In this document: positions 5,701-45,138 of the stretch, in pieces | Layout of the letters: each line of letters opens with the position of its first letter | Numbering within the stretch: position 1 is the first letter of the stretch | NCBI GenBank assembly: GCA_032433765.1 | Contig: JAVIAB010000102.1 | Span: forward strand, 7,304,007-7,368,006 | Direction of reading: 5' to 3' | Origin: Megaustenia siamemsis | Lineage: Eukaryota > Mollusca > Gastropoda > Stylommatophora > Ariophantidae | DNA length: 64,000 nucleotides | Program-made: the position numbers and the translations under genes | The notes under the pieces: model-generated | Databases searched by the model: none | Told to the model about the DNA's origin: nothing | What the model saw: only the letters and a program-made list of their open reading frames with translations

Positions 5701-7015
5701 CACAACTAAAAACATTGAAGGAGGCAGTAGCTCAATGTGCCCACAACTAAAAACATCCGCGGAGGCAGTAGCTCAATGTGCCCACAACTAAAAACATTAA
5801 AGGAGGCAGTAGCTCAATGTGCCCACAACTAAAAACATTAAAGGAGGCAGTAGCTCAATGTGCCCACAACTAAAAACATTAAAGGAGGCAGTAGCTCAAT
5901 GTGCCCACAACTAAAAACATCCGCGGAGGCAGTAGCTCAATGTGCCCACAACTAAAAACATTAAAGGAGACAGTAGCTCAATGTGCCCACAACTAAAAAC
6001 ATTGAAGGAGGCAGTAGCTCAATGTGCCCACAACTAAAAACATTGAAGGAGGCAGTAGCTCAATGTGCCCACAACTAAAAACATTGAAGGAGGCAGTAGC
6101 TCAATGTGCCCACAACTAAAAACATTGAAGGAGACAGTAGCTCAATCTTCCCACAATTAAAAACATCCGCTGAGGCAGTAGCTCAATGTGCCCACAACTA
6201 AAAACATTGAAGGAGGCAGTAGCTCAATGTGCCCACAACTAAAAACATTGAAGGAGGCAGTAGCTCAATGTGCCCACAACTAAAAACATTAAAGGAGGCA
6301 GTAGCTCAATCTGCCCACAACTAAAAACATTAAAGGAGGCAGTAGCTCAATCTGCCCACAACTAAAAACATCCGCGGAGACAGTAGCTCAACGTGCCCAC
6401 AACTAAAAACATTAAAGGAGGCAGTAGCTCAATGTGCCCACAACTAAAAACATTGAAGGAGGCAGTAGCTCAATGTGCCCACAACTATAAACATTAAAGG
6501 AGGCAGTAGCTCAATGTGCCCACAACTAAAAACATTAAAGGAGGCAGTAGCTCAATGTGCCCACAACTAAAAACATTAAAGGAGGCAGTAGCTCAATGTG
6601 CCCACAACTAAAAACATCCGCGGAGGCAGTAGCTCAATGTGCCCACAACTAAAAACATTAAAGGAGGCAGTAGCTCAATGTGCCCACAACTAAAAACATT
6701 GAAGGAGGCAGTAGCTCAATGTGCCCACAACTAAAAACATCTGCGGAGGCAGTAGCTCAATGTGCCCACAACTAAAAACATTGAAGGAGGCAGTAGCTCA
6801 ATGTGCCCACAACTAAAAACATTAAAGGAGGCAGTAGCTCAATGTGCCCACAACTAGAAACATCTGCGGAGGCAGTAGCTCAATGTGCCCACAACTAAAA
6901 ACATCCGCGGAGGCAGTAGCTCAATGTGCCCACAACTAAAAACATTGAAGGAGGCAGTAGCTCAATGTGCCCACAACTAAAAACATTGAAGGAGGCAGTA
7001 GCTCAATCTCCCTAC
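2740..7015. repeat. 41-bp satellite array, about 104 copies
   Basis: The unit is 41 bp, read as GGAGGCAGTAGCTCAATGTG followed by CCCACAACTAAAAACATTGAA. The leftmost copies (2770-2990) are diverged, and the array becomes homogeneous to the right. Variation concentrates at two places: GTGCCC / CTTCCC / CTGCCC, and CATTGAAGG / CATTAAAGG / CATCCGCGG / CATCAGCGG. Segments near 5147 and 5967 repeat in the same variant order at 820 bp (20 units), indicating a higher-order duplication. No frame is meaningful. Confidence 0.97.
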
Positions 7016-7164
7016 GATTGAAAGGTAATAACACTCCAAAATAACCCTGAAATCACAATCTGAGGTTTGACACAAAGCTGTCACCAAAAGTTTACAAAAA
7101 TCCAAAACAAACAAAATATTTTGGTAGAAGGTCAAAAGAGAAGTAATAAACTGTAAATGTATAT

Positions 7165-7255
7165 ATTTAATCATGTGCTGAAGGTCTGTAAAATTTGTGG
7201 TCACTAACACCATATTCCCTATACGCCACTTGGCGTGACGGGGGATCTTTACTTT
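7165..7255 (+). mobile_element. SINE-A 3' fragment
   Basis: Only the last third of SINE-A is present, from ATCATGTGCTGAAGGTCTG to the ACGCCACTTGGCGT hairpin and GGGGGATCTTTAC. It is 5'-truncated. Confidence 0.85.
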
Positions 7256-7334
7256 TTTTTTTTAATGATCGTCAACGCCTATGGGCATGGACTTAATGCT
7301 GATGTTGGCCATCGGCCGCTCATTTCAATATAAA

Positions 7335-7560
7335 AATACTGTCTGTAAGAGCGGTTGGCGGAATCGATAACTTGTCTGGCTCCAAACCAGGAAAAGGAAG
7401 GTTCGAATCACGGTAAGGTCAAAAGTTTTTTTGTTTTTTTTTTATATCGTGTGTAAGATAAAAGCTCTGACCAAAACAACTCGCGGTGACAGCACTGGAC
7501 AAGTGGCCTTTATTCTCCGGTTCGATAAGTCCCCTCCTCTCCAGAAATTAGAGAATGATG
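7335..7560 (+). mobile_element. SINE-B, second tRNA-derived SINE family
   Basis: The head resembles a tRNA (GAGCGGTTGGCGGAATCG as A-box region, GGTTCGAATCAC as B box). The body includes CTCTGACCAAAACAACTCGC and GATAAGTCCCCTCCTCTCC. A relative with the same layout is at 24646-24862 (TATAAGTCCCC body motif). The ORF at 7431-7619 is a chance frame through the body. Confidence 0.7.
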
Positions 7561-7628
7561 CAAAGATCATTCTTGTTTTATGTTTTGAAGTCGATGGACA
7601 TTATCTAACATGTAAGTGATCTTCCTAA

Positions 7629-7930
7629 GTGCTCGCACGGGCATCCCAAATATCTACACAGCTGCTCGGACAACATAGGTTACTGTGGCTTGGCCACGTA
7701 AACCGTGTGAGTGATGGCCGTGTGCCAAAAGATAGACTCTACAGACAGCTGGCGAATGGTAAAGGGACTTGGGAGCACCCAGGGCTTAGATTTGTTGACA
7801 TTTGTAGACGTGGCATTAGGTCTCTGAACATGGGCCTTGCGGCATGGGAAGAGATAGCTGCAAACCATAATCTTTGAATACACACTAGGGCTTCGGCTTA
7901 GAGAAGAAGAGGACAGATTCATGGAAAAGG
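7629..7930 (+). pseudogene. LINE ORF2 C-terminal fragment (LGHVNRVSDGRVPKD type)
   Basis: The frame 7629-7877 encodes an ORF2 tail with RLLWLGHVNRVSDGRVPKDR and then LRFVDICRRGIRSLN. This pattern is seen downstream of the reverse transcriptase in many animal non-LTR elements. A diverged reverse-oriented copy is at 58435-59160. The fragment ends before the trinucleotide array. Confidence 0.8.
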
Positions 7931-11861: not shown

Positions 11862-12060
11862 TAACACTTTGGTGTCTTTCAGAACGTTTTCATTACTCTT
11901 CTTAACTGTCCATGGTATTCTCAACATTCTTCTGTAAAACCACAGGTTTGCTTACATGTATACTCATCATCATGTACCGGGCCTGCTGGTGTAGGTGATC
12001 ATGTCCCTCCACAACTTTCGATCTCAGCAGCTATTTATCATTTCTGTTGTTGACCTTCTA
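11862..12060 (-). mobile_element. nLTR-1 fragments, continuation and a second 3' end
   Basis: Bases 11868-11945 (TCTTTCAGAACGTTTTCATT to CTTCTGTAAAACCACA) continue the nLTR-1 copy interrupted at 10958. At 11965 a second 3' end begins (TCATCATGTACCGGGCCTGC) and runs to the dispersed repeat at 12060. Confidence 0.75.
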
Positions 12061-12225
12061 TGGGTAGATTAGGGAGAGTAAAAGGCCAAGGCAGGGTACC
12101 CTGAAATAAAACAACCCCACTGCCTTGTGGGTGAGACTTTTTAGTCAAAGGCTAGCGGAGCCAACCGTAAACAAACCGACGGAAGGCAACAGAAAACCAC
12201 CGTCGTAATTTCTTTGGATAATCAT
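12060..12225 (+). repeat. Dispersed repeat R1
   Basis: About 160 bp are shared in inverted orientation with 19490-19655. Shared words include CCGACGGAAGGCAACAGAAA (here) and the antisense form TTTCTGTTGCCTTCC there, plus AGTCTCACCC / GGGTGAGACT. No coding frame is visible. It may be an untranslated part of a retroelement. Confidence 0.7.
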
Positions 12226-12299
12226 GAATCGCTGCTGTTATAACTGTCAGATAATGTGGCAAACTTTATCTTTTTCTCATGCTCATTCGTGCACCGGAG

Positions 12300-13265
12300 T
12301 TCTTGTGGGTTTTTTTTGTGTGGTTTGTTTGTTGTTAGTTTTTTTTTTGTTGTGTTTTTTTGGTGTTTATTTTGTTTCTGTTGTTTTGTTTGTTGTTTTT
12401 TGGTGTTTATTTTGTTTCTGTTGTTTTGTTTGATGTTTTTTGGTGTTTATTTTGTTTCTGTTGTTTTGTTTGTTGTTTTTTTGGTGTTTATTTTGTTTCT
12501 GTTGTTTTGTTTGTTGTTTTTTTGTGTTTATTTTGTTTCTGTTGTTTTGTTTTTGTTTTTTTGTTGTTTATTTTGTTTCTGTTGTTTGTTTATTGTTTTT
12601 TTTGGTGTTTATTTTGTTTCTGTTGTTTTGTTTGTTGTTTTTTTGTGTTTATTTTGTTTCTGTTGTTTTGTTTGTTGTTTTTTGGTGTTTATTTTGTTTC
12701 TGTTGTTGTTTGTTTGTTTTTTTTGGTGTTTATTTTGTTTCTGTTGTTTTGTCTGTTGTGTGTTTTTGGTGTTTATTTTGTTTCTGTTGTTTTGTTTATT
12801 GTTTTTTTGGTGTTTATTTTGTTTCTGTTGTTTTGTTTATTGTTTTTTGGTGTTTATTTTGTTTCTGTTGTTTTGTTTATTGTTTTTTTGTTGTTTATTT
12901 TGTTTCTGTTGTTTTGTTTATTGTTTTTGGGTGTTTATTTTGTTTCTGTTGTTTTGTTTATTGTTTTTTTTGTTGTTTATTTTGTTTCTGTTGTTTTGTT
13001 TGTTGTTTTTTGGTGTTTATTTTGTTTCTGTTGTTTTGTTTATTGTTTTTTTTGGTGTTTATTTTGTTTCTGTTGTTTTGTTTATTGTTTTTTTGGTGTT
13101 TATTTTGTTTCTGTTGTTTTGTTTATTGTTTTTTTTGGTGGTTATTTTGTTTCTGTTGTTTTGTTTGTTGTTTTTTTTTTGGTGTTTATTTTGTTTATGA
13201 TGTTTTTGTTATTTTGTTTGGTTTGTTGTTGTTTTTTTTTTTAATTCTTTGTTTGTTTGTTTTGT
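12300..13265. repeat. T-rich minisatellite, unit about 39-43 bp
   Basis: The unit is GGTGTTTATTTTGTTTCTG followed by TTGTTTTGTTTGTTG and a T-run whose length varies. The changing T-runs shift frame from unit to unit, so three overlapping frames of about 290-314 codons are all open on the plus strand. All encode Phe/Val/Leu/Cys low-complexity sequence. These are composition artefacts. Confidence 0.95.
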
Positions 13266-32172: not shown

Positions 32173-33754
32173 TCATCATCATCATCAAGTACCGGGCCTA
32201 CTGGCGTAGGTGATCATGTCTCTCCACAACTGTCGATCTCGACAGTTCTTTATCATTTCTGTTGTTGACCTTCTACCAAGCCATTCTCTTAAACTGTCTG
32301 TTATTGTTTCTCTTTGTTTCCTTCTATCTCTTCGTCCCTCAATTTTTCCAGTTGTTACAATATATTCCAGCTGTTCCCTTCTCATTACATGGCCAAAAAT
32401 GATGATTGTTTCTTCCTAATATTGGAAATTAGCTCTCTTTTTGCTTTGACCTATTTCAGAACATGTACATTTCTCTTCTTAGCTGTCCATGGTACTCTCA
32501 ACATTCTTCTGTAAAACCACATTTCTACAGACTCCAGTGATTTTCTTGTCTGCTGTCCTATTGTTGTTCCCAAACATTTAAATTCATTTACCTGTTTTAA
32601 TATTGTTCCACTTGTCTTTATTTTGCACTGAGGTAATGTCTTTTTCTTTGTTGTTACCATGTCTGTCTTTTTGCTATTAAGGCTGAGTCCTTTATTGTTT
32701 GCTTTCTTCCACTATAATGTCCAACATTTCTTGTAACTCATTTTCACTCTTAGCGATTAATACTGAGTCATCAGCATACATTAGATTATTTATATTATGA
32801 CCTCCAATTGTTATTCCAGGCATGCCCCTTATGGATCTTAAAATAATCTCACTATAAATATTAAACAAATCTGGTGACAGCACACAACCTTGTCTAACAC
32901 CCTGTTTTATTTGTTGAAACATTACCAATTGGTTTCCAGTTCTTATGGTCGCTGTTTGTTGCCAGTACATGTTCTTTATTATTCTTAGATCTTTGCTGTC
33001 TACGTTTATGTTTTCTAAAATGTTGATTATTTCTTGGTGCTTTACTTTGTCAAATGCCTTGGTGTAATCTATGAAACATAGGTATAGATCTGTTTTCACC
33101 TCTATGGCTCTTTCTACTAAAGATCGTATGATATAAATGGCATTGCTTGTTCCTTTATCTCTAACAAAACCACACTGTTCTTTGCTAATTTCTGGACTGA
33201 TTTTGTTTCGCACTCTTCGCATGATGATACTTAGTAATATCTTAGTCATATGACTCATAAGGCTTATTGTGCGATAATCATCGCATTCAATCGCACCCGA
33301 TTTCTTTGGTAGGGCTATGAATATTGATTTGAGCATGTCGTCTGGTATATATCCGCTGTTGTAGATATCATTCAATATTTTTGTTATGATTTCTATTCCA
33401 AAATCACCCATGGCTTCAACCTCTTCTTTAGTTATATTATCTGGTCCAGGAGCTTTACCTGCTTTCATATTGCGCAAGGCGTCTTCCACTTCTTCTCTGA
33501 GTATTTCTGGTCCTTCTCCATTATCCTTAATATTTACTTCCGTTCGTTCATCATTATAAAGATCTTTAATGTATTCTGTCCATCGTTCCCTTATGTTTTC
33601 TTGACCAATCAACAGTTCTCCTTCCTTTGATCTTAGACATAGAGTTTTTGATTGCGTTTTTCTTCCTGTTAATTCCTCAATTTGTTTGTATATAGTTTTA
33701 GCATCCCCTTTTTGTTGCATTTCATTTTCTTTGCATCTCTCTTTTAGCCATGCT
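32173..33754 (-). pseudogene. nLTR-1 LINE ORF2, reverse transcriptase to 3' end, split by the Polinton
   Basis: On the minus strand, 33754-32692 encodes a nearly complete non-LTR reverse transcriptase of about 350 codons. It has fingers with NMKAGKAPGPDNI, motif A region LYLCFIDYTKAFDKVKH, motif B region QGVRQGCVLSPDLFNIYSE and catalytic box LMYADDSVLIA. A stop near 32692 ends the frame. The following C-terminal part (32690-32180) is in broken frames with an internal deletion after FKCLGTT, and ends in an (ATC)n tail. The reading frame enters from the Polinton boundary: its upstream continuation is at 45139-45440. The element would have encoded an endonuclease/reverse transcriptase for target-primed insertion. 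It is dead. Confidence 0.92.
33749..33754. repeat. Target site duplication, left (CATGCT)
   Basis: The six bases CATGCT directly precede the left TIR and recur directly after the right TIR at 45133-45138. Six bp is the standard Polinton/Maverick duplication length. Confidence 0.95.
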
Positions 33755-34938
33755 AGTAGTATAGGTGGCTGTGAACTCAACAGAAAAGTGGAATAACATG
33801 CACCGAAATACAATAGATTTGGCACCGACTTTGCACCGACTTTGCACCGAAAAAAAAAAAAAAATTTTTTCGAATTCGCGATTTTTTCGAACTTCATTAT
33901 TTTTTTGGGGGAAAATTTTTTTTTTTTTGGTGTTCGTCAGTTTGTCGAAATGGTTCACTGAGAGCTTAACTCAGGTAAATTCAATGGAGACTCGGTGCTA
34001 ATCCGGTGATCGTCGCTCCGTGTCCGGTGATCGCCTCGCTCGTGTTAGAAATTTGTGAAAGAGTATTTTAAAAGAGTATGTGATAAATATGTTTCAAAAC
34101 GTTAAGAAATATAGTTAAATGTGATAAAACTGATTTTTAAAAAAGGCGAAATAATAAAAACTATGAAAAAAAAATAAGTTAACATACTGACGGAAAACTA
34201 GTCAAGAAACTGGAATGACATTTTTGTTGACTGGGCTAGTGGTACTTGAGGAATGCTATTGTTAGAATCGCTTACAAGGAATCGTGGTCATTGTTAGGAG
34301 CTGACGGTCATTGTTAGGCATCCGTGTTTAGAGTTAAAGTTAGGTAGAGGCATGTCGGGGACAGCGGTTCTAAAAGGGGGTATCTCGCGGGTCGGATGGC
34401 GGGTCGTCGTGCGGGTGGGGAAAGGTGCCTTTATTGGTTATCATCATGTGTGTGTATTAGGCAACAGGCCAGGCGACATGTAAAAAAAAAAATGCTGACA
34501 AGCAATTATTAGTATCGTTAGCATCGTGTATTCTGACCTTCCCTCCTTGTTTTCTAACACAACTTCCTAGATTTCTGACCATGCCCCTCAACATCCCCCT
34601 TCCTACTATCATCATGTGCCTCAACACTATCATGTGCCACCCTCAACACTATCATCATCTTGTGCCACCCTCATCATCATCATCATGTGCCACCCTCAAC
34701 ATCCCCCTTCCTACTATCAGCATGTGCCTCAACACTATCCACCCTCATCATCATCATCATGTGCCTCAACACCACCATTCATATCATCAAGCCACACAAA
34801 GTATCAATCATCTCTCTCACACATTCATGGTAAACCAAAACAAAACTCGTTCTATATTTTCACAACTTTATTAATACAACAAATATACGACACATATATA
34901 TATTACTGTCCGGTCGTTGATAATTTTAAGCGTCTGGG
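33755..34938 (+). repeat. Polinton left terminal inverted repeat
   Basis: 1,184 bp, inverted with respect to 43951-45132, with only a few substitutions and short indels. The outer end holds three tandem copies of CACCGACTTTG (about 33820-33850), followed by A- and T-runs around TTCGAATTCGCGA. The inner part contains ATCATCATGTGCC modules (34585-34780) and a poly(A) signal for the outward-facing gene. ORFs through the ATC modules are artefacts. Confidence 0.95.
34867..34872 (-). terminator. Poly(A) signal AATAAA for the PC4-like gene
   Basis: TTTATT on the plus strand is AATAAA on the minus strand, 31 bases past the stop codon. The same hexamer in the other TIR serves the protease gene. Confidence 0.6.
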
Positions 34939-35604
34939 TTTCCTCCCTCCTGTTTTGGTGGTACTGTTTGTTAAATGTCTATCAAACACGGGTACATAGG
35001 AAGTGTCATTAGCCTTCAAAACACAACCGCCCTCCATTTTGACAAAACCTTGATCAAAGCTGGAATAGGTAATCGGTGACTCTGCTGAAACACCCGAGGC
35101 ATTCATATTGGGTGCCGGATCTGTCGTCTGATTAACAAGAGTGAGGTTCCCTTGATTAACAAAGGGGGGCGTGTAGTCGATTAGATTCGTGTTAACAAGA
35201 GATGGTATGTAGTTTTGGTGGTTAACGACAGGCGGCGTGTAGTTGATCTGATTAACGAGAGGTGGCGTGTAGCTGATCTGGTTAACAACAGGCGGCGTGT
35301 AGTTGAGGTTAGCATAAGCGGTTAAAATTTCCTCTCGCATCTCGACTAACGTGATAAATTCCTCTCTCGATAGTGTTATCCCAGTTCTGGTAGGAAACTT
35401 AAAAAAACTATCACCGCTATATGTCCTTATATTTATCAATGGTCTGTTACGAAAAACACAAACCGAGACTGCCTTAACGCCATCTTTAGACAATGGAACT
35501 ACAGTCTCATTTCCACGTGACATAAATATGCGCTGATCACTGAGATCAAACGAAATTGGCGTATTCAAGCTACACGACTCCATATTCAAAGAAAAACAAA
35601 CCAC
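34903..35604 (-). CDS. PC4-like ssDNA-binding protein with YTPPxVNQ repeats
   Basis: A 233-residue protein. Residues about 24-96 match the layout of the PC4/Sub1 C-terminal domain: a VSVCVFRNRPLINIR strand pair, a basic turn, TGITLSREEF, then a helix (ITLVEMREEIL). PC4 folds bind single-stranded DNA and act in transcription and replication. Residues 101-152 are five degenerate repeats of about 10-12 residues (YTPPVVNQ type), and the C-terminus is basic (GGRKPRRLK). The gene faces outward and its last 12 or so codons lie in the TIR. A second possible start is Met8. Fold assignment is by eye and needs a profile search. A role in replication or late transcription of the element is inference. It is divergent from the ATPase operon, sharing a 404-bp intergenic region. 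Confidence 0.8.
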   Translation of the reverse strand: MVCFSLNMESCSLNTPISFDLSDQRIFMSRGNETVVPLSKDGVKAVSVCVFRNRPLINIRTYSGDSFFKFPTRTGITLSREEFITLVEMREEILTAYANLNYTPPVVNQISYTPPLVNQINYTPPVVNHQNYIPSLVNTNLIDYTPPFVNQGNLTLVNQTTDPAPNMNASGVSAESPITYSSFDQGFVKMEGGCVLKANDTSYVPVFDRHLTNSTTKTGGRKPRRLKLSTTGQ

Positions 35605-36008
35605 CTGGCAACAGACGTTGGTTATGTGTGTGTGTACACTGCTCGACTGGGGGGTTTTTATACCCGTTTATCGGGTCGAGGACCGTCTATTTATAGCAGC
35701 TAACGCAATACTTTATCAGGCGTGGTAATCAGTCGTGTTGCGACATGTTCAGTGACCTCTGGAACTGACCCAATAGGGGGGTGATGTGTGGGGAAATATG
35801 ATGCGTGTAACAATTCGGTCTCAGGTAACGCGGCTTGAGACTAGGAAACTCCTCCTCCTCCTCCTCCCCCCTGTCGTGTTTATATAGGTTGTGGATTTTA
35901 AAAATAGGTGTTAGTTGAAGGGGGGGGAAACCTCGCGCGCTGACCTAAAATCACTCGTTGTTATTTTCGTCGGGGGCGTAATCACTAAAGTTAGTAGCAC
36001 TTGCGAGG
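35605..36008. promoter_or_regulatory. Divergent promoter region of the Polinton
   Basis: 404 bp between the minus-strand PC4-like gene and the plus-strand series. TATAAAAA on the minus strand (35655-35662) lies about 50 bases from the PC4-like start codon. TTTATATA on the plus strand (35879-35886) lies about 120 bases from the ATPase start. A (CTC)n-like run (35849-35870) and a G-run (35920-35928) flank the latter. There are no other strong motifs. The plus-strand ORF at 35915-36220 overlaps the ATPase out of frame and is not credible. Confidence 0.55.
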
Positions 36009-36626
36009 ATGGATCCCCGATGGAATCATCCCTTCACAGCTCTGATAGCCGGTCCTACCGGGTGTGGGAAAACGGTATTTGTGCAAAAGTTTATACAGAA
36101 CCTTCACGAGCTAGCTGTCCCCGTACCGGAGGAAGTTATATGGTGTTATGGGGAATGGCAGCCGATATACGAGACTATGGGGTCAGTGAGATTTATCGAG
36201 GGTCTACCAGACGTCGATAAATTGGAAGGTGGTAAGAAGAGAAGACTGATCGTCATCGATGACTTGATGTCTGAGACGGACGAGCGGGTAACAAAATTAT
36301 TCACCAAAGGTAGTCATCACAGAGATATTAGTGTGATGTACATTGTTCAAAATCTATTCGGAAAAAATAAAGAACATCGAACCATAAGTCTCAATACGCA
36401 CTATTTAGTCCTTTTCAAGAACCCGAGAGACGGGAGTCAAATTATGAATCTGGGTAAACAAATGTACCCGGGTCGGGTGGGGTACCTCCAAGATAGTTTT
36501 AAGGACGCGACAGCGACTCCTCACGGTTATTTGCTGGTCGATCTTCGTCAGGACACACCTGATAATCTTAGGTTGAGAACAAAAATATTCCCGGGGGAGA
36601 GACAAATCGTCTACGTGCCAAAGTAG
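36009..36626 (+). CDS. ATP: DNA-packaging ATPase (FtsK/HerA, A32-like)
   Basis: A 205-residue P-loop ATPase expected to pump DNA into capsids. Walker A is GPTGCGKT (residues 15-22), and Walker B is LIVIDDL (80-86). Sensor-like VMYIVQNLF (about 108-116) and HYLVLFKNPRDGSQI (about 129-143) follow in the order typical of Polinton and virophage packaging ATPases. Length is near the family norm (about 200-270). It is the first gene of the plus-strand series. The next start lies 7 bases past the stop. No breaks are seen. Confidence 0.95.
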   Translation: MDPRWNHPFTALIAGPTGCGKTVFVQKFIQNLHELAVPVPEEVIWCYGEWQPIYETMGSVRFIEGLPDVDKLEGGKKRRLIVIDDLMSETDERVTKLFTKGSHHRDISVMYIVQNLFGKNKEHRTISLNTHYLVLFKNPRDGSQIMNLGKQMYPGRVGYLQDSFKDATATPHGYLLVDLRQDTPDNLRLRTKIFPGERQIVYVPK

Positions 36627-36632
36627 AGAATC

Positions 36633-36959
36633 ATGTGTGATGAAGCACTTAGACGGCACGGTGAAATGTTGAAATGTATGCGCGCCGCCTCGCCGAGCGG
36701 TTTAAGAGCCATATTAAAAACAGCCTCTCCCAAACTCATTAACTTTTTGTGCGAGTGTTGTCATAACATATTAAAAGGTAATGTTAGACTCACTCAGCGA
36801 CAGAAGTGCGAGCTACGTCGACACAAGAACAAGTTGAGACTTCTCACTAAAAAGAAACCGAGTCTTAAGCGGCGGAAAGAGATTCTACAAACCGGTGGGT
36901 TTATAGGTGCTTTGCTCCGTCCTATATTAAGTATTCTCGGTGGAGTACTAGGTGCGTAA
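36633..36959 (+). CDS. Small basic protein with hydrophobic Gly-rich C-terminus
   Basis: 108 residues of unknown function. The N-terminal part is Cys/His-containing (LINFLCECCHNIL, residues about 35-47). The middle is highly basic (RHKNKLRLLTKKKPSLKRRK). The end is hydrophobic and glycine-rich (GGFIGALLRPILSILGGVLG). The same layout, placed after the ATPase, recurs in other animal Polintons as I know them. A membrane- or DNA-contacting virion component is plausible but inferred. Its stop is separated by 2 bases from the next start, so co-expression is likely. Confidence 0.75.
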   Translation: MCDEALRRHGEMLKCMRAASPSGLRAILKTASPKLINFLCECCHNILKGNVRLTQRQKCELRRHKNKLRLLTKKKPSLKRRKEILQTGGFIGALLRPILSILGGVLGA

Positions 36960-36961
36960 CA

Positions 36962-37327
36962 ATGGCCAAAAAAATGATTTTGGTGGATCCTCGATTCCTC
37001 GAGGGTCTTAAACAGACTACTACCACGTCGTATAGCCCACCCGAGGCGATCGGTGACAACTTGAGAGATTTAGATGATGAAATGCAACGTATCCTATTCT
37101 GCGATGATTTAGCACCCGCCGATAAGGCCAGAGTGTACCAACGTGCCCTGCATCAATATTTAACTAGATTGGAGCAGTATAAACGACGCTCATTGGGCTC
37201 GGTCGATCTCATTCAACACAACACGGCAACAGAAAAAACACATTCCCCACCAACACCATCATTCGAGCTATCACCAGAGCAGACCAAGACACCACCACCA
37301 CCACCACCAGCGGAAACCCAAAGGTAG
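36962..37327 (+). CDS. Conserved Polinton protein of unknown function, Pro-rich tail
   Basis: 121 residues. It starts MAKKMILVDPRFLEGL, followed by an acidic helical segment (DLDDEMQRILFCDDLAPADK, about 38-57) and LYQ-type helices to residue 80. A Ser/Thr/Pro tail ends in a run of Pro (about 110-117). The stop comes just after the CCA run. A different frame continues open from there with a basic, Trp-containing tail to 37427, overlapping the integrase start. The original C-terminus may therefore have been lost to a small indel near 37300-37325. Function is not known. Confidence 0.7.
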   Translation: MAKKMILVDPRFLEGLKQTTTTSYSPPEAIGDNLRDLDDEMQRILFCDDLAPADKARVYQRALHQYLTRLEQYKRRSLGSVDLIQHNTATEKTHSPPTPSFELSPEQTKTPPPPPPAETQR

Positions 37328-37403
37328 GTAATGAAACCACTCCGCCCGTAGCCACGTATAAACTGAGACCTAAAAAAAGAAAGAGCGGAATCCCAACACC
37401 AAA

Positions 37404-38474
37404 ATGGGAACGGTGGAGAAAATATTGAGACGTCGTTACTTTGACCCTAGTCGACCAGGGGCGTATAGTGGTGCAACGGCCCTGCAACGTAACACCAAAC
37501 TGGGACTCGCAAAGATCAAACAATGGCTGAGTCATCAGGATACCTATACCCTTCATAAACCAATTCGTCGCAGATTTGAAAGGCGTCCCATTATAACGAG
37601 TGGCCCCCAACAGCAATATCAGGCAGACCTAATCGATTTGAGACATTTGAAAAAACACAACGACGGATATTCCTATTTGGTTTCTTGCGTGGACGTTTTC
37701 AGTAAATTCGCGTGGTCTGTACCGATACGAACCAAAACGGGGAAATCCTTAGTGGAAGCCGTCGGTAAGATATTTCTCGATGGGAAACCCGCGAGTTTTC
37801 AAACCGATAAGGGGTCAGAGTTTCTGAACAGAACATTTCAGAAATTCCTCGCTGACAACAACGTTCACTTTTTCACTACGCAGAACGAAGATATCAAGGC
37901 CGCCGTGGTGGAACGCTTTAATAGGACTCTGAAACAACGGATGTGGCGATATTTCACGAAATCCAATAAGTTGTCTTATGTCCGAGTCCTCCCCGCCCTA
38001 CTTCGAAGTTATAACCATTCGTATCACAGAAGTATAAAAATGGCACCGGTCGACGTCAACGCAGACAATCAAGAACAGGTATGGAACACGTTGTATAATA
38101 GCAAACGTAACTTTAAATTTGAAAGACCCCTGTACAAGCCCGGTGATCGAGTTAGACTGGTCCTGGGCAGAGCCAATTTTAAAAAGGGTTATGCCCCGGC
38201 TTGGACGGAGGAACTGTTTTCCATCAGTCGAGTAAACGAAACAAACCCCGTTACATATGTGTTGAAGGATGATAAGGGCGATGAGTTAGAGGGGTCATTC
38301 TACACACCGGAAATTCAAAAAGTTGGAGACAAACACGAGTACAGAATCGAGAGTGTCATAACCGAGCGTCGCACATCCTTTGGGCGAAAGGAGTGTTTAG
38401 TCAAATGGTTTGGGTACGATTCCTCATTTAACACTTGGATACCGTCCAAGGACATTGTCAGATACAAAAACTAG
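37404..38474 (+). CDS. INT: Retroviral-type DDE integrase with C-terminal chromodomain
   Basis: A 356-residue integrase catalysing the strand transfer that produces the 6-bp duplication. The catalytic core has D75 (QADLID), D135 (QTDKGSEF) and E170 (VVERFNRT), the last two 35 apart as in the D,D35E signature. An SH3-like segment follows (YKPGDRVRL, about 244-252). The chromodomain is at about 313-355 (HEYRIESVI, CLVKWFGY, TWIPSKDI). The N-terminal HHCC zinc finger is not recognisable, leaving a short helical N-terminus. This copy is intact. Its last 354 bases are duplicated at 40191-40544. The Met at 37404 is the first in frame and overlaps the previous gene's residual frame. Confidence 0.96.
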   Translation: MGTVEKILRRRYFDPSRPGAYSGATALQRNTKLGLAKIKQWLSHQDTYTLHKPIRRRFERRPIITSGPQQQYQADLIDLRHLKKHNDGYSYLVSCVDVFSKFAWSVPIRTKTGKSLVEAVGKIFLDGKPASFQTDKGSEFLNRTFQKFLADNNVHFFTTQNEDIKAAVVERFNRTLKQRMWRYFTKSNKLSYVRVLPALLRSYNHSYHRSIKMAPVDVNADNQEQVWNTLYNSKRNFKFERPLYKPGDRVRLVLGRANFKKGYAPAWTEELFSISRVNETNPVTYVLKDDKGDELEGSFYTPEIQKVGDKHEYRIESVITERRTSFGRKECLVKWFGYDSSFNTWIPSKDIVRYKN

Positions 38475-38476
38475 AG

Positions 38477-38785
38477 ATGCGAGAAGAAGAAGAAGTGGTA
38501 ACTTTTGGTGGAGAGCCCGATTTGCGAGCCGTAAACTCGGGAGTCGGGAGAGACGGCGAATCGCGCTGGTGGGGGTCGATGTTTGGGAAACTATCCCCCT
38601 ACATAGAACTTGTCTTTATTTGTCAAGTGGTAGTTATATATACAGTTGTAGCGGTCTCGCTGTTCAATCTGACCACCGAAAAGCCAGACGCGAAGGAGGG
38701 AAAACTGTGGATAGCCCTACTGAGCAGCTGTTTGGGTTACATGCTACCGAATCCAAACTTGGAGAGGCGACGGCGAAACGAGTAA
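38477..38785 (+). CDS. Small two-helix membrane protein, copy 1
   Basis: 102 residues from the ATG two bases after the integrase stop. A Met 14 codons upstream in the same frame overlaps the integrase and is less likely. An acidic start (MREEEEV) is followed by a hydrophobic helix YIELVFICQVVVIYTVVAVS, a charged linker and a second shorter one (LWIALLSSCLGYMLP), then a basic end (ERRRRNE). Function is unknown. Similar small membrane proteins sit beside capsid genes in other Polintons, so a virion-assembly or membrane role is inferred. The next gene starts 9 bases on. Confidence 0.75.
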   Translation: MREEEEVVTFGGEPDLRAVNSGVGRDGESRWWGSMFGKLSPYIELVFICQVVVIYTVVAVSLFNLTTEKPDAKEGKLWIALLSSCLGYMLPNPNLERRRRNE

Positions 38786-38794
38786 AAAAAAAAA

Positions 38795-39592
38795 ATGAGT
38801 TTTTATGTCACCCTTCCCAGCAATGCATCTATGGAACTTTTTAAGGATAATAACCCAGGTCACTTTTTCGTTAAACTTCCTCAGACCATTGACATTTCAA
38901 CGCAGTATGAGATCGCGCTGGTGGAGATACAGTTTCCGCTAAATTATTTCAATGTAATAGAGGGTGATGTATGGATTCGCTATGAATCTCTCGATAACGA
39001 CGATATTTGCGACACCAGATTTTATTTCAACGTGACATTGGAACCTGGGTTATACACGAAACCCGATGCGTTCATCGGCGCGTTGAACGCGTCGATCGTA
39101 AAAGCGGAGGATGAGTCGTACAGGGGAGAGAAAGGGAAAAAAATGAGATTCATTTACGCAAAAGAGGTGAATAAAGCCATCTTGAAACTTTACGAGAAAG
39201 GAGTCAGTGTTACCATAAGCGATACTTTGAAAAACATGTTAGCCTTCCCCACGACCACAATATCAGACACGGCTCCCGATATCTTCAGCGTGGGTGTAAT
39301 GGACTTGGAAAGTGTTGCGAAGAATGTGTACGTCTACTGCGATCTCGTTTCCCCCAGACCGGTCGGGGATGTGATGGTGCCTCTCCTCAGGAGCGTGCCT
39401 GTTCTCAATAGAAATCACACCTCGGTGTTTCAGATCTACGATAAGCCTCACTACCTACCCCTGAGTAGATTTTCCTTCGATACCGTCGAGATCCTTTTAG
39501 CCAACGAACACGGAAAAACCATTCCATTCACCAGCGGGACGTCGGTGCTAACGGTACACTTTCGAGTCAAGAAGCATCTCGAGCTGGTATAA
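38795..39592 (+). CDS. mCP: Minor capsid (penton, single jelly-roll) protein, copy 1
   Basis: 265 residues. The N-terminus has the features of Polinton and virophage penton proteins: SFYVTLPSNASMELF, NPGHFFVKLP, then YEIALVEIQFP with FPLNY. The C-terminus (FDTVEILLANEHGKTIPF, LTVHFRVKKH) is also typical of the family. The fold is assigned from known relatives, not predicted here. It would form the pentameric capsomers at the icosahedral vertices. The stop overlaps the next start as TAATG. The second copy (40865-41662) differs at two residues, D/A and N/K. Confidence 0.9.
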   Translation: MSFYVTLPSNASMELFKDNNPGHFFVKLPQTIDISTQYEIALVEIQFPLNYFNVIEGDVWIRYESLDNDDICDTRFYFNVTLEPGLYTKPDAFIGALNASIVKAEDESYRGEKGKKMRFIYAKEVNKAILKLYEKGVSVTISDTLKNMLAFPTTTISDTAPDIFSVGVMDLESVAKNVYVYCDLVSPRPVGDVMVPLLRSVPVLNRNHTSVFQIYDKPHYLPLSRFSFDTVEILLANEHGKTIPFTSGTSVLTVHFRVKKHLELV

Positions 39593-40086
39593 TGGTGAAA
39601 CACACTCCCCTTCATAGAGATGTTGAGTTATACGAAGACTTTTACTGCTGTCAGGCCGGCGATGGGATGCCCGTGTTTATAGGAGGTCGAAGTCAGAGCG
39701 GTCGAGGAATCGGTAGTTTCTTCGGTGGAATCGGGAGGGCTATTTTACCCTGGTTAAAAACCGGCGGTAAGGCCTTGCTCAGAGAAGGCTTGGGGACCGG
39801 TCTGCAGGTCGCACAGGACGCATTGGCCGGAAAAAATGTCGGTGAAGCTTTCAAAGAACGAGCTAAGGAGGCCGGTCAGCGGTTGCTACACGGGGCCGTA
39901 GACCACCTGCGTGATAACAACCAATCAGGAAGTGGTTTACGTCAAAGCAGAAAGCGAGTTATGAAGCTACCTCCACCAGGAGAACCCGTTACGAAGAGGA
40001 TAAAACCGACAGCTGGACGGTTCCACCTTCATTCGGTGCACAACAGAGGGAAGAAGACGAGGGTGGCAAAGGATATTTTCGACTAA
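39592..40086 (+). CDS. Basic Gly-rich virion-type protein, copy 1 (intact)
   Basis: 164 residues. The N-terminal quarter is followed by a glycine-rich amphipathic stretch (GRGIGSFFGGIGRAILPWLK, then TGGKALLREGL) and a helical region (QVAQDALAGKNVGEAFKERA). The tail is Lys/Arg-rich (KKTRVAKDIF). The glycine-rich amphipathic segment resembles adenovirus internal-capsid membrane-lytic proteins in general style. A cement or membrane-penetration role is only an inference. It overlaps the penton stop by one base (TAATG), so translation of the two is probably coupled or uses one message. This copy is undamaged. Confidence 0.75.
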   Translation: MVKHTPLHRDVELYEDFYCCQAGDGMPVFIGGRSQSGRGIGSFFGGIGRAILPWLKTGGKALLREGLGTGLQVAQDALAGKNVGEAFKERAKEAGQRLLHGAVDHLRDNNQSGSGLRQSRKRVMKLPPPGEPVTKRIKPTAGRFHLHSVHNRGKKTRVAKDIFD

Positions 40087-40088
40087 TA

Positions 40089-40544
40089 ATGTCCCTCATT
40101 CACCCCAAATCGTGCGAATGTCTTCACTCTGGTTTGGATTTATTTAGCGTCCCACCCACACAGACATCTCTAGACTCTGGCCAGTTTATTGAAAGACCCC
40201 TGTACAAGCCCGGTGATCGAGTTAGACTGGTCCTGGGCAGAGCCAATTTTAAAAAGGGTTATGCCCCGGCTTGGACGGAGGAACTGTTTTCCATCAGTCG
40301 AGTAAACGAAACAAACCCCGTTACATATGTGTTGAAGGATGATAAGGGCGATGAGTTAGAGGGGTCATTCTACACACCGGAAATTCAAAAAGTTGGAGAC
40401 AAACACGAGTACAGAATCGAGAGTGTCATAACCGAGCGTCGCACATCCTTTGGGCGAAAGGAGTGTTTAGTCAAATGGTTTGGGTACGATTCCTCATTTA
40501 ACACTTGGATACCGTCCAAGGACATTGTCAGATACAAAAACTAG
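40089..40544 (+). pseudogene. Chimeric ORF: capsid N-terminus joined to integrase C-terminus
   Basis: A 151-codon open frame made by the duplication. Codons 1-35 are the start of the major capsid gene, and from the TTGAAA junction (40189-40194) the frame continues in phase as integrase residues from about 240 to its stop. It includes the SH3-like segment and whole chromodomain. It has a capsid start codon but no DDE core. It is either an inert by-product or a free chromodomain protein. There is no evidence for expression. Confidence 0.9.
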
Positions 40545-40546
40545 AG

Positions 40547-40855
40547 ATGCGAGAAGAAGAAGAAGTGGTAACTTTTGGTGGAGAGCCCGATTTGCGAGCC
40601 GTAAACTCGGGAGTCGGGAGAGACGGCGAATCGCGCTGGTGGGGGTCGATGTTTGGGAAACTATCCCCCTACATAGAACTTGTCTTTATTTGTCAAGTGG
40701 TAGTTATATATACAGTTGTAGCGGTCTCGCTGTTCAATCTGACCACCGAAAAGCCAGACGCGAAGGAGGGAAAACTGTGGATAGCCCTACTGAGCAGCTG
40801 TTTGGGTTACATGCTACCGAATCCAAACTTGGAGAGGCGACGGCGAAACGAGTAA
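40547..40855 (+). CDS. Small two-helix membrane protein, copy 2
   Basis: Identical in sequence to 38477-38785. It follows the chimeric ORF with the same 2-base gap. Confidence 0.75.
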   Translation: MREEEEVVTFGGEPDLRAVNSGVGRDGESRWWGSMFGKLSPYIELVFICQVVVIYTVVAVSLFNLTTEKPDAKEGKLWIALLSSCLGYMLPNPNLERRRRNE

Positions 40856-40864
40856 AAAAATAAA

Positions 40865-41662
40865 ATGAGTTTTTATGTCACCCTTCCCAGCAATGCATCT
40901 ATGGAACTTTTTAAGGATAATAACCCAGGTCACTTTTTCGTTAAACTTCCTCAGACCATTGACATTTCAACGCAGTATGAGATCGCGCTGGTGGAGATAC
41001 AGTTTCCGCTAAATTATTTCAATGTAATAGAGGGTGATGTATGGATTCGCTATGAATCTCTCGATAACGACGATATTTGCGACGCCAGATTTTATTTCAA
41101 CGTGACATTGGAACCTGGGTTATACACGAAACCCGATGCGTTCATCGGCGCGTTGAACGCGTCGATCGTAAAAGCGGAGGATGAGTCGTACAGGGGAGAG
41201 AAAGGGAAAAAAATGAGATTCATTTACGCAAAAGAGGTGAATAAAGCCATCTTGAAACTTTACGAGAAAGGAGTCAGTGTTACCATAAGCGATACTTTGA
41301 AAAACATGTTAGCCTTCCCCACGACCACAATATCAGACACGGCTCCCGATATCTTCAGCGTGGGTGTAATGGACTTGGAAAGTGTTGCGAAGAATGTGTA
41401 CGTCTACTGCGATCTCGTTTCCCCCAGACCGGTCGGGGATGTGATGGTGCCTCTCCTCAGGAGCGTGCCTGTTCTCAATAGAAATCACACCTCGGTGTTT
41501 CAGATCTACGATAAGCCTCACTACCTACCCCTGAGTAGATTTTCCTTCGATACCGTCGAGATCCTTTTAGCCAAAGAACACGGAAAAACCATTCCATTCA
41601 CCAGCGGGACGTCGGTGCTAACGGTACACTTTCGAGTCAAGAAGCATCTCGAGCTGGTATAA
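40865..41662 (+). CDS. mCP: Minor capsid (penton) protein, copy 2
   Basis: 265 residues and intact. It differs from copy 1 by Asp to Ala in the CDxRFYF segment and Asn to Lys in LLAxEHGK. Being directly upstream of the major capsid gene, this copy keeps the ancestral neighbour on that side, except for its broken Gly-rich partner. Confidence 0.9.
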   Translation: MSFYVTLPSNASMELFKDNNPGHFFVKLPQTIDISTQYEIALVEIQFPLNYFNVIEGDVWIRYESLDNDDICDARFYFNVTLEPGLYTKPDAFIGALNASIVKAEDESYRGEKGKKMRFIYAKEVNKAILKLYEKGVSVTISDTLKNMLAFPTTTISDTAPDIFSVGVMDLESVAKNVYVYCDLVSPRPVGDVMVPLLRSVPVLNRNHTSVFQIYDKPHYLPLSRFSFDTVEILLAKEHGKTIPFTSGTSVLTVHFRVKKHLELV

Positions 41663-42155
41663 TGGTGAAACACACTCCCCTTCATAGAGATGTTGAGTTA
41701 TACGAAGACTTTTACTGCTGTCAGGCCGGCGATGGGATGCCCGTGTTTATAGGAGGTCGAAGTCAGAGCGGTCGAGGAATCGGTAGTTTCTTCGGTGGAA
41801 TCGGGAGGGCTATTTTACCCTGGTTAAAAACCGGCGGTAAGGCCTTGCTCAGAGAAGGCTTGGGACCGGTCTGCAGGTCGCACAGGACGCATTGGCCGGA
41901 AAAAATGTCGGTGAAGCTTTCAAAGAACGAGCTAAGGAGGCCGGTCAGCGGTTGCTACACGGGGCCGTAGACCACCTGCGTGATAACAACCAATCAGGAA
42001 GTGGTTTACGTCAAAGCAGAAAGCGAGTTATGAAGCTACCTCCACCAGGAGAACCCGTTACGAAGAGGATAAAACCGACAGCTGGACGGTTCCACCTTCA
42101 TTCGGTGCACAACAGAGGGAAGAAGACGAGGGTGGCAAAGGATATTTTCGACTAA
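41662..42155 (+). pseudogene. Basic Gly-rich virion-type protein, copy 2 (frameshifted)
   Basis: Same gene as 39592-40086, but one G is missing in the GGGG of copy 1 (about 41862-41864). After about 68 codons the frame changes and stops at 41970. The original frame remains open from 41892 to 42155. The break lies in the glycine-rich segment, so the basic tail is lost. Copy 1 could supply the function. Confidence 0.9.
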
Positions 42156-42157
42156 TA

Positions 42158-43461
42158 ATGTCCCTCATTCACCCCAAATCGTGCGAATGTCTTCACTCTG
42201 GTTTGGATTTATTTAGCGTCCCACCCACACAGACATCTCTAGACTCTGGCCAGTTTATTGAAATTCGTCCGATCGCAGCTTTGTCGCATAGCGCACCGAT
42301 AGAGTTTTTCATTTCTGGAAACAGCGAGGAGTATCTAGATCTTTTCAACACGTTTTTACATCTGCGGGTCAAAATCACCCTCCCGAATGGTGATAGTGTA
42401 CCAGTCGATGCTGAGGTAGGACCGGTCAACAATTATCTTCACAGTCTATTTTCACAAGTCGACGTATCGCTAAACGACACGTTGGTTACACCGTCGGAGA
42501 ATACCTATCCTTTTAGAGCGGTGTTTGAGGCCACGCTAAATTACGGAGAGGATGCGAAAACGGGATACTTGACGGCGCTCTGTTCTACAAAGACACAGCT
42601 GGCCACCATGACGATTTGAAAGAAAATGAGGGTTTTAAAACACGGCGCGATTTGACTTCGGGTAGTAAAGAGGTTGAAATGATGGGTCGTTTGCACTCTG
42701 ATGTCTTTGTGCAGGATCGTTACATGTTAAACAGAGTCGATGTAAAGATAAAACTCACCCCCTCGAAGGATGTGTTCAGCCTCGCGGCTCACGATAGCTC
42801 TGTGGGTTATAAGAGTGTTATCACCTACGCCGCGCTCGTGGTCAGGAAAGCTAAGCTAAACCCCGCGATTTCTCTGGCCCACGAAAAGGCTCTCTTGAGC
42901 GGGAATGCGCGGTACCCGATCAAGAGGGTTACCATCAAGACCTTTTCCATCGCTAGCGGGATGCTTTCCCACAGTCAAGACAATTTATTTTTGTCTCAAA
43001 CACCGACCCGTATAGTGATAGGTCTGATTACGGCCAGTGCTTTTAATGGTGTTTACACAGCTAACCCGTTCAATTTTCAACACTTTGGTCTGATTTATAT
43101 GAACCTGACGGTGGACGGGAAATGTATCTCGGGAAAGCCTCTAACTATGGACTTTGAACGAAATCAATACGCGAGAGCTTTCTTCGGCACAAATCTGGCC
43201 ATGGGTCTGATTGGTAAAGACGCTGGGAATAACGTTGATTATAGAGAATTCAAGGACGGATACTGCCTATTTGGTTTTGACCTCTCGTCCAGCCTACTGG
43301 ACGGCTCCCATTTTGAGCTAGCCACAAGCGGACCCTTGTCGATAGAACTCAAGTTTGCCGCTCCCACCACTACTCCCCTACAAGTTATCGTCTACGCAGA
43401 GTTGGACTCGGTGCTCGAGGTGTCCAAGACAAGGCAGATTCTAACAGACTTCGCCGTTTGA
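42158..43461 (+). pseudogene. MCP: Major capsid protein (double jelly-roll), frameshifted
   Basis: Two adjoining frames make one gene of about 430 codons, a normal length for a Polinton major capsid protein. The first (42158-42619) starts with MSLIHPKSCECLHS and contains SGNSEEYLDLFNTFLHLRVK. The second (open from about 42582, first Met at 42616, stop at 43461) contains GRLHSDVFVQDRYMLNRVDV, PNPFNFQHF-like ANPFNFQHFGLIYMNL and a C-terminal VIVYAELDSVLEV. The frame changes near 42581 through loss of one base or gain of two. This is the only complete-length major capsid gene in the element, so particle formation would need another source, unless the shift is a sequencing error. Confidence 0.9.
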
Positions 43462-43474
43462 GAGAGAGTCGAAT

Positions 43475-43963
43475 ATGAACACGAGGGAGATTTACAACCT
43501 TTTGATGTCGGATATTTTCGTTCGACGTTGTTCCCTTGTTAGTGTCATTCCACGAAACCACTTACCGCCGAGCATCGACCCAACGGCGACCGCGGCCTTT
43601 GTCATAAACACCGACCCTGCCCACGAACCCGGTGAGCATTGGGTGGCCCTATTTTACAACGGTCTCGGCGAATGTGAGTATTTCGATTCCTACGGTTTGC
43701 CTCCCAGACACGTGGATATTTTAAACTTTATAGAGCAAAACTCACACGTTCCATTCGTCTACAACCCGCGGGTGTTGCAAGATTTGTTTAGCAACACGTG
43801 CGGTCTATATTGTGTTTATTATATACTTCTTAAGTGTCGTGGCGCGAAACTTAACAGAATTCTCATGCCTTTTTCATCGAGACAGCACGTAAACGACCGT
43901 ATCATTTATCGTTTGCTCGCCCCGTGGATACTTCGGCTTCGAGGGGCCCGCCCAGACGCTTAA
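43475..43963 (+). CDS. PRO: Adenain-like cysteine protease (virion maturation)
   Basis: 162 residues, a C5/adenain-family maturation protease. Catalytic residues are visible in order: His55 in GEHWVALF, Asp71 in EYFDSYG, Gln102 in LQDLFS, and Cys109 in SNTCGLYCVYY. The length is slightly short of adenovirus proteases (about 200) but normal for Polintons. It would cleave capsid precursors during maturation. It starts 13 bases after the capsid stop. Its last four codons lie inside the right TIR, and a poly(A) signal follows at 44017. Intact. Confidence 0.95.
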   Translation: MNTREIYNLLMSDIFVRRCSLVSVIPRNHLPPSIDPTATAAFVINTDPAHEPGEHWVALFYNGLGECEYFDSYGLPPRHVDILNFIEQNSHVPFVYNPRVLQDLFSNTCGLYCVYYILLKCRGAKLNRILMPFSSRQHVNDRIIYRLLAPWILRLRGARPDA

Positions 43964-45132
43964 AATTATCAACAACCGGACAGTAATATATATATGTGTC
44001 GTATATTTGTTGTATTAATAAAGTTGTGAAAATATAGAACGAGTTTTGTTTTGGTTTACCATGAATGTGTGAGAGAGATGATTGATACTTTGTGTGGCTT
44101 GATGATATGAAGGGTGGTGTTGAGGCACATGATGATGATGATGAGGGTGGATAGTGTTGAGGCACATGCTGATAGTAGGAAGGGGGATGTTGAGGGTGGC
44201 ACATGATGATGATGATGAGGGTGGCACATGATGATGATGTTGAGGGTGGCACATGATAGTGTTGAGGCACATGATGATAGTAGGAAGGGGGATGTTGAGG
44301 GGCATGGTCAGAAATCTAGGAAGTTGTGTTAGAAAACAAGGAGGGAAGGTCAGAATACATGATGCTAACGATACTAATAATTGCTTGTCAGCATTTTTTT
44401 TTTACATGTCGCCTGGCCTGTTGCCTAATACACACACACACATGATGATAACCAATAAAGGCACCTTTCCCCACCCGCACGACGACCCGCCATCCGACCC
44501 GCGAGATACCCCCTTTTAGAACCGCTGTCCCCGACATGCCTCTATCTAACTTTAACTCTAAACACGGAGCCTAACAATGACCGTCAGCTCCTAACAATGA
44601 CCACGATTCCTTGTAAGCGATTCTAACAATAGCATTCCTCAAGTACCACTAGCCCAGTCAACAAAAATGTCATTCCAGTTTCTTGACTAGTTTTCCGTCA
44701 GTATGTTAACTTATTTTTTTTTCATAGTTTTTATTATTTCGCCTTTTTTAAAAATCAGTTTTATCACATTTAACTATATTTCTTAACGTTTTGAAACATA
44801 TTTATCACATACTCTTTTAAAATACTCTTTCACAAATTTCTAACACGAGCGAGGCGATCACCGGACACGGAGCGACGATCACCGGATTAGCACCGAGTCT
44901 CCATTGAATTTACCTGAGTTAAGCTCTCAGTGAACCATTTCGACAAACTGACGAACACCAAAAAAAAAAAAAATTTTCCCCCAAAAAAATAATGAAGTTC
45001 GAAAAAATCGCGAATTCGAAAAAAATTTTTTTTTTTTCGGTGCAAAGTCGGTGCAAAGTCGGTGCCAAATCTATTGTATTTCGGTGCATGTTATTCCACT
45101 TTTCTGTTGAGTTCACAGCCACCTATACTACT
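43951..45132 (-). repeat. Polinton right terminal inverted repeat
   Basis: 1,182 bp, complementary to 33755-34938. The outer end is CCTATACTACT, followed by the target duplication. Compared with the left TIR it has small indels in the ATC modules and in the A/T-runs. Confidence 0.95.
44017..44022 (+). terminator. Poly(A) signal AATAAA for the plus-strand genes
   Basis: 54 bases after the protease stop, inside the TIR. It is the mirror of the signal at 34867-34872. Confidence 0.6.
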
Positions 45133-45138
45133 CATGCT
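45133..45138. repeat. Target site duplication, right (CATGCT)
   Basis: Identical to 33749-33754. Removing the element and one copy joins the LINE frame across the site. Confidence 0.95.

Follow-up and report, generated by a model that had tools for sequence, protein, structure and literature searches.

Polinton-derived capsid and integrase elements without polymerase B coexist with separate polymerase-only elements in the genome of Megaustenia siamemsis

The 64,000-nucleotide stretch of Megaustenia siamemsis DNA analysed here (the window; contig JAVIAB010000102.1, positions 7,304,007 to 7,368,006) contains a complete insertion at 33755–45132. It belongs to a family of Polinton-derived elements, designated family C, which has its own capsid, packaging and integration genes and no gene for the protein-primed family B DNA polymerase (polB). 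Separate elements of the same genome, designated P, carry polB. C and P are distinct, complete, high-copy elements with complementary gene sets, the same class of ends and the same class of target duplication. C is probably replicated in trans by the PolB of co-resident elements. Within family C, the window copy is a damaged one, with a tandem duplication and a broken gene for the major capsid protein (MCP).

Both borders of the window element are present. The left terminal inverted repeat (TIR; 33755–34938, plus strand, first letters AGTAGTATAGG) and the right TIR (43951–45132, minus strand, last letters CCTATACTACT) are 1184 and 1182 bp long, respectively, and 98.5% identical, with 6 mismatches and 6 gaps. 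The termini are AGTAGT//ACTACT, i.e. the (AGT)2//(ACT)2 ends of Polintons/Mavericks, and CATGCT on both sides (33749–33754 and 45133–45138) represents the 6-bp target-site duplication (TSD) also typical of them; a random 6-bp match has a chance of about 1 in 4096. The original prediction had described a complete element with intact TIRs, a 6-bp duplication and integration, packaging, protease and penton genes, lacking polB, and the analysis agrees: the genes were found, and tblastn of the 64-kb window with the polymerases of two relatives gave a best E-value of only 0.94. The protein-primed family B polymerase that a Polinton/Maverick carries within the same element is absent from the window element and from C, and C is therefore classed among Polinton-derived elements without polB rather than among strict Polintons. 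Between the left TIR and the packaging ATPase gene, at the place taken by polB in full relatives, the window element has a PC4-like gene (34903–35604, minus strand, 233 residues; Pfam PC4 E-value of 1.1e-7, 31.7 bits against a cut-off of 25). The PC4 domain of known proteins binds single-stranded DNA, and one may speculate that the product has a role in replication or late transcription. No polymerase or helicase was recognised among the C genes in the list of open reading frames (ORFs) of the window and the Pfam search.

The host genome (2.59 Gb, 155 contigs) contains at least 114 integrase (INT) and at least 138 MCP copies of family C with 98–100% identity. The integrase search scored 114 of 4620 candidates, and the C counts given here are among the matches listed; six of the 114 integrases have an internal stop. 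Left ends were read at 20 of 29 fetched loci besides the window, the nine left out including L058, L059, L060, and L065, in which rearrangement is evident. The PC4-like gene directly precedes the ATPase gene in 19 of the 20, L079 having an inverted ATPase block instead, and the TIR tip was located in 14. None of the 20 has polB in the slot before the ATPase gene; a polB fragment is present at one (L084), outside the TIR remnant. Eight copies were completed by taking their right ends, and their lengths range from 8839 to 9593 bp. Full-length PC4 rows number at least 86 in the genome, of which 53 are within 9 kb of a listed C-type INT or MCP, and none is within 12 kb of the 105 listed MCPs of the full relatives (family F, described below) or of any polB row. 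Family C is a high-copy lineage of recent spread and not one deleted copy, which upholds both the recent movement and the polB-less lineage that had been proposed. The probability that we are looking at a deletion remnant or an assembly artefact is negligible. Assembly errors could explain part of the duplication and frame break of the window copy, but exact TSDs flank seven of the eight other complete copies (all but L083), with a different 6-mer in each, the lengths of these copies leave no room for polB, and a distinct PC4-like gene occupies the polB slot; for family C as a whole, this explanation is already contradicted.

Full relatives with polB reside in the same genome. In the F copy at C101:14.508–14.519 Mb, the MCP, INT, p121, p108, and ATPase genes run away from an opposite-strand polB (p121 and p108, like p116 and p164 below, are names coined here). 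This copy was read in pieces, and the DNA identity between C and F is 83–87% in MCP, INT, and ATPase, and also in p121 and p108. In this single F copy, homology to the window ends at window position 36005, 4 bp upstream of the start codon of the ATPase gene, and polB fills in F the slot that the PC4-like gene fills in C. Among the matches listed, 34 of 45 full-type polB N-terminal ORFs have an F-type MCP at 4777–5143 bp, on the opposite strand in all 34, while 11 are without one, perhaps owing to the limited length of the listing. F-type MCPs amount to at least 105 rows with 95–99% identity. Outside the host genome, relatives with equivalent gene order were found in eukaryote-type contigs binned into prokaryote metagenome-assembled genomes. 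Two of them, L001 (binned with an Escarpia endosymbiont) and L007, are full relatives with the order ATPase-INT-p116-penton-MCP-protease, and a p108 match was obtained in L001 only. Their polB (Pfam DNA_pol_B_2; two overlapping frames in L007) is directly upstream of the ATPase gene on the same strand, whereas polB of F in the host genome is divergent from it. L012 has a PC4-like ORF whose 19.1 bits fall short of the cut-off (25); polB was not matched within 6.2 kb upstream of its integrase. The genome search that the original prediction had proposed yielded many polB-less copies as well as full relatives with polB in the PC4 slot. The prediction had also stated that related copies with polB at one consistent site, together with a simple deletion scar in the window copy, would speak against a polB-less lineage; such relatives exist (the 34 of 45 above), but C, compared with the one F copy read, has a PC4-like gene in the slot and no deletion scar.

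The polB-only elements of the host genome are of two types, A and B, with AGTAGT ends and an exact 6-bp TSD in six of seven tested. The original prediction had not anticipated separate elements of this kind. Type A was delimited in C123 (10,532 bp; duplication GTCATG, exact), C87 (10,191 bp; CCCGTC, exact), and C51 (8494 bp; duplication agreeing in 5 of 6 letters and one internal stop in polB). The type A polB has an open frame of about 1600 codons, and an acidic ORF on the minus strand was read upstream of it in C123. The C123 PolB keeps the motifs DTDS, D-NALYL, and KTY. None of the window genes was found in the polB flanks read for both types (polB bodies were read in part, in C123 only), and no capsid or INT gene of the listed C or F types is within 12 kb of the 24 close type A rows or the 88 other polB rows. 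The TIRs of type A match those of C with 84–91% identity over 444–683 columns in the window and in eight of the 20 other C left pieces. Type B elements are palindromes with two divergent polB genes and termini AGTAGTATA; their TSDs were exact in all four tested (CACATG, CACGGA, AAGGCC, and TGTGTT), and 12 distinct divergent pairs are present among the 88 listed polB rows (rows, not genes). Their ends agree with C over approximately the first nine letters only, and a C-like tip is present at the palindrome centre over 74 bp in two of four elements and 53–57 bp in a third, with none in the fourth. At the centre of one type B polB palindrome (L095, 3946–4059), a 114-bp stretch has two outward C-type tips and is possibly a minimal TIR-only element. 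Internal inversions or inverted pairs akin to the type B palindromes were seen in the C copies L059, L060, L065, and L079, and inverted pairs in the host genome also at C124:62877108/62882848 and C47:28414502/28420623. These structures hint that C inversions and type B palindromes are products of hairpin or template-switch replication.

A role of the (AGT)2//(ACT)2 end motif in jumping-back protein-primed replication has been described (PMC8097293; here and below, statements on published systems refer to the parts of these sources that were consulted). In the trans-replication reading, the retained (AGT)2 ends of C would serve protein-primed replication, a co-resident protein-primed PolB would start replication at these ends in trans, and the integrase and capsids of C or F would mobilise P. 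If PolB acts on C and the C or F proteins serve P in this way, C and type A together would represent either one genome in two parts or a satellite with its helper. A stronger version, which we put forward tentatively, is a bipartite integrating virus: a Polinton genome would have been divided into two segments, C with the capsid and integrase genes and type A with the polymerase gene. These have related TIRs and integrate independently with 6-bp TSDs, and each would rely on its partner, be it to replicate or to be packaged and integrated. We consider it rather doubtful that C is a plain satellite of F alone and that the polB-only elements are unrelated by-products, even though F is a high-copy family with nearly identical MCPs, a consistently placed polB and the close identity to C given above. 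Nine of the 21 C TIRs, including that of the window, resemble type A over approximately 450–680 columns, whereas the sole F end read (the polB side of one copy, starting with AGTAGTATA) matches C in the first nine letters only. The co-residence of F fits the suggestion of the original prediction that the element is a satellite of a full Polinton; its description as packageable does not suit the window copy, in which the MCP is broken. The other suggestion, a virus-like lineage replicating with host enzymes, stands as to the lineage. Replication of C by host polymerases without PolB is now less likely, and indeed very improbable: C has no recognised polymerase or helicase, and many protist elements are without a detectable polymerase (Bellas et al., PMC10120064), but the (AGT)2 ends are retained in C and the genome also has many polB genes whose frames are open.

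Variation among the C copies bears on the use of the capsid genes. The MCP is open at 491–493 codons in approximately 104 of the 138 listed copies (counted by eye). The ratio of nonsynonymous to synonymous polymorphism (pN/pS) is 0.17 for penton and 0.34 for ATPase (18 indel-free copies each), and that of INT between C and F is 0.13. Among 30 loci, copies with indels were dropped for ATPase (9), penton (9), p108 (5), and INT (0). As judged from these sequences, the capsid genes of C appear to have been under past purifying selection. An intranuclear DNA transposon that moves by its integrase without virions, the capsid genes being leftovers, would be compatible with the high copy number of C, the broken MCP of the window and the indels in nine ATPase and nine penton genes; the open MCP frames and the low penton ratio argue against it, and we regard it as improbable.

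Several results weigh against replication in trans. The co-occurrence of polB with C was assessed using 238 polB rows (150 + 88) and a distance of 12 kb, among the matches listed; the three polB queries scored 33 of 11,313, 55 of 8804, and 150 of 5697 candidates. No polB row is within this distance of the 138 listed C-type MCPs, and the same method gave the 34 of 45 pairings in F as a positive control. From the MCP side, a listed polB is nearby in only 34 of the 105 listed F-type MCPs; the lists therefore miss much. This makes the lack of such pairs among the C-type MCPs a suggestive result, and direct evidence comes from the 20 left ends and eight completed copies. For one of the 114 listed C-type INTs, a polB row does lie inside the 12 kb. 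This locus, L122 (C124:27008452–27011500), is scrambled: beside its integrase, a protease, an N-terminal piece of type A polB (90% over 94 residues), and p121 are joined. A second of the 114 loci, L084, also has a polB fragment close by; at its left end (seen with L121), a truncated piece of polB adjoins a C TIR that is itself truncated. The long match to the type A TIRs is missing in 12 of the 20 C left pieces, and F by itself is a possible helper, in which case type A would be irrelevant. The pN/pS of p108 is as high as 0.74 (23 C copies), and that of INT (0.06, 29 C copies) is biased since the copies were chosen on INT identity. Finally, genes with indels occur at many loci, and a good part of the C copies is thus decayed or mis-assembled.

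The damage in the window copy consists of two parts. A direct tandem duplication of 2.07 kb spans 38119–42263, its units (38119–40194 and 40189–42263, both on the plus strand) being 99.8% identical with 3 mismatches and 1 gap in 2076 bp, and its breakpoints carry the 6-bp microhomology TTGAAA. It contains the integrase C-terminus, p116, penton, p164, and the MCP start, and the element would be approximately 9.3 kb without it instead of 11.4 kb. The INT–MCP spacing could be measured in 41 of the 114 integrase copies (a listed MCP no more than 12 kb downstream) and is 1942–2096 bp in 38 of them; two others have 2471 and 5127 bp, and the 4145 bp of the window is found in the window copy alone. 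In addition, the MCP changes frame near 42.6 kb and has an open frame of 310 codons, so the window copy cannot be packaged in its present form. The genes had been described as tightly packed from 36009 to 43963. No polB is present there, but the tandem duplication was overlooked and the stretch thus includes a second penton gene and a chimeric ORF.

All genes of this stretch are on the plus strand. The packaging ATPase (A32/IVa2-like; 36009–36626) has identities of up to 79% to metagenome homologues and is at the equivalent place in L001, L002, L007, and L011. It is followed by a conserved small basic protein, p108 (36633–36959; matches in L001, L002, and L011), and the conserved p121 (36962–37327; equivalently placed in F and the C copies sampled). 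The retroviral-type (RVE) integrase of Polintons/Mavericks is encoded at 37404–38474 and has a C-terminal chromodomain (Pfam rve 7.8e-13, Chromo 9.8e-7). The first copy of p116 (38435–38785) has similar ORFs in L001, L005, L007, and L009; the first penton-like minor capsid protein (38795–39592) resembles adenovirus/virophage-type capsid proteins; and the first copy of p164 (39592–40086) has matches in L001, L002, L009, and L010. The chimeric junction ORF (40089–40544), identified from the ORF list and a Chromo match, joins the MCP N-terminus to the integrase C-terminus, and the second penton-like gene (40865–41662) was recognised from the ORF list and the repeat comparison. The MCP is encoded in two frames, an N-terminal part that stops early (42158–42619; 54% to the L001 MCP) and a C-terminal part (42616–43461; 38%). 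An adenovirus-type cysteine protease (43475–43963; Pfam Peptidase_C5 E-value of 4.7e-4, 20.3 bits, just under the cut-off of 21.3) is at a conserved place. The ATPase matches in Pfam are weak and likewise under the cut-off, and both assignments lean on gene order. The structure model of the homologous L001 MCP, rather than of the broken window protein, matches double-jelly-roll MCPs. With this modelled fold taken from L001, the window element appears to have the Polinton/Maverick set of packaging ATPase, penton, double-jelly-roll MCP, and protease.

On the left side of the window element, the frame of a LINE (long interspersed nuclear element)-type reverse-transcriptase ORF (32692–33897, minus strand) extends into the left TIR, and the element is thus beside or inside a LINE copy. 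Among the outside relatives, TATA-binding-protein genes are present on Polinton-type contigs (L007, 10652–11200, minus strand; L011, 151–753), and L007 also encodes a dUTPase (12009–12446). L002 has two different penton-like genes (2761–4149 and 6423–7703) flanking the MCP-protease block. Upstream of INT, L003, L008, and L012 have a gene with a look-alike C-terminal tail (judged by eye), and L008 and L012 have a RING-finger gene.

Whether Polintons are transposons or viruses is debated, and the polymerase is regarded as one of their core genes. If the reading given here is true, the coexistence of capsid-only, polymerase-only, and full forms with like ends would link satellites and multipartite DNA viruses to one parent, and such a genome opens trans-replication, TIR specificity, and co-packaging to direct tests. 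No description of paired capsid-only and polB-only Polintons was found in the titles and abstract openings listed by searches of an open-licence library, a scope that leaves out Repbase and most subscription papers. Family C is similar to vertebrate Polintons/Mavericks (PMC8097293) in the (AGT)2//(ACT)2 ends, 6-bp TSD, RVE integrase, ATPase, penton, MCP, and protease, while it differs from them in having no protein-primed PolB, a PC4-like gene, a high copy number with many open frames, and a length of 8.8–9.6 kb compared with 12.7–24.6 kb for intact vertebrate elements. The hexon/penton set and the integrase with a chromodomain resemble those of Adintoviruses (PMC11071296), whose defining PolB with an N-terminal OTU-like domain is not in C. 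The same source mentions genomes with adenovirus-class virion proteins but without PolB and integrase; these differ from the combination of C with separate polB-only elements, which does not appear in the consulted part of that paper. The endogenous elements of protists (PMC10120064) are likewise integrated and capsid-bearing with no polymerase detected, but they often have helicase domains, and complementary polB-only elements are unmentioned in the portion of that report consulted. By analogy, a divided genome has its closest parallel in the Bidnaviridae (PMC4061559), which have two segments with a shared terminal structure and a Polinton-derived PolB. Here, shared termini were observed in the sequences of type A and nine of the 21 C copies. 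Bidnaviruses have single-stranded DNA and a parvovirus-type capsid, whereas both parts of the present system are Polinton-derived and integrated, and its penton-like protein and the model of the MCP homologue match capsid proteins of the adenovirus/virophage type.

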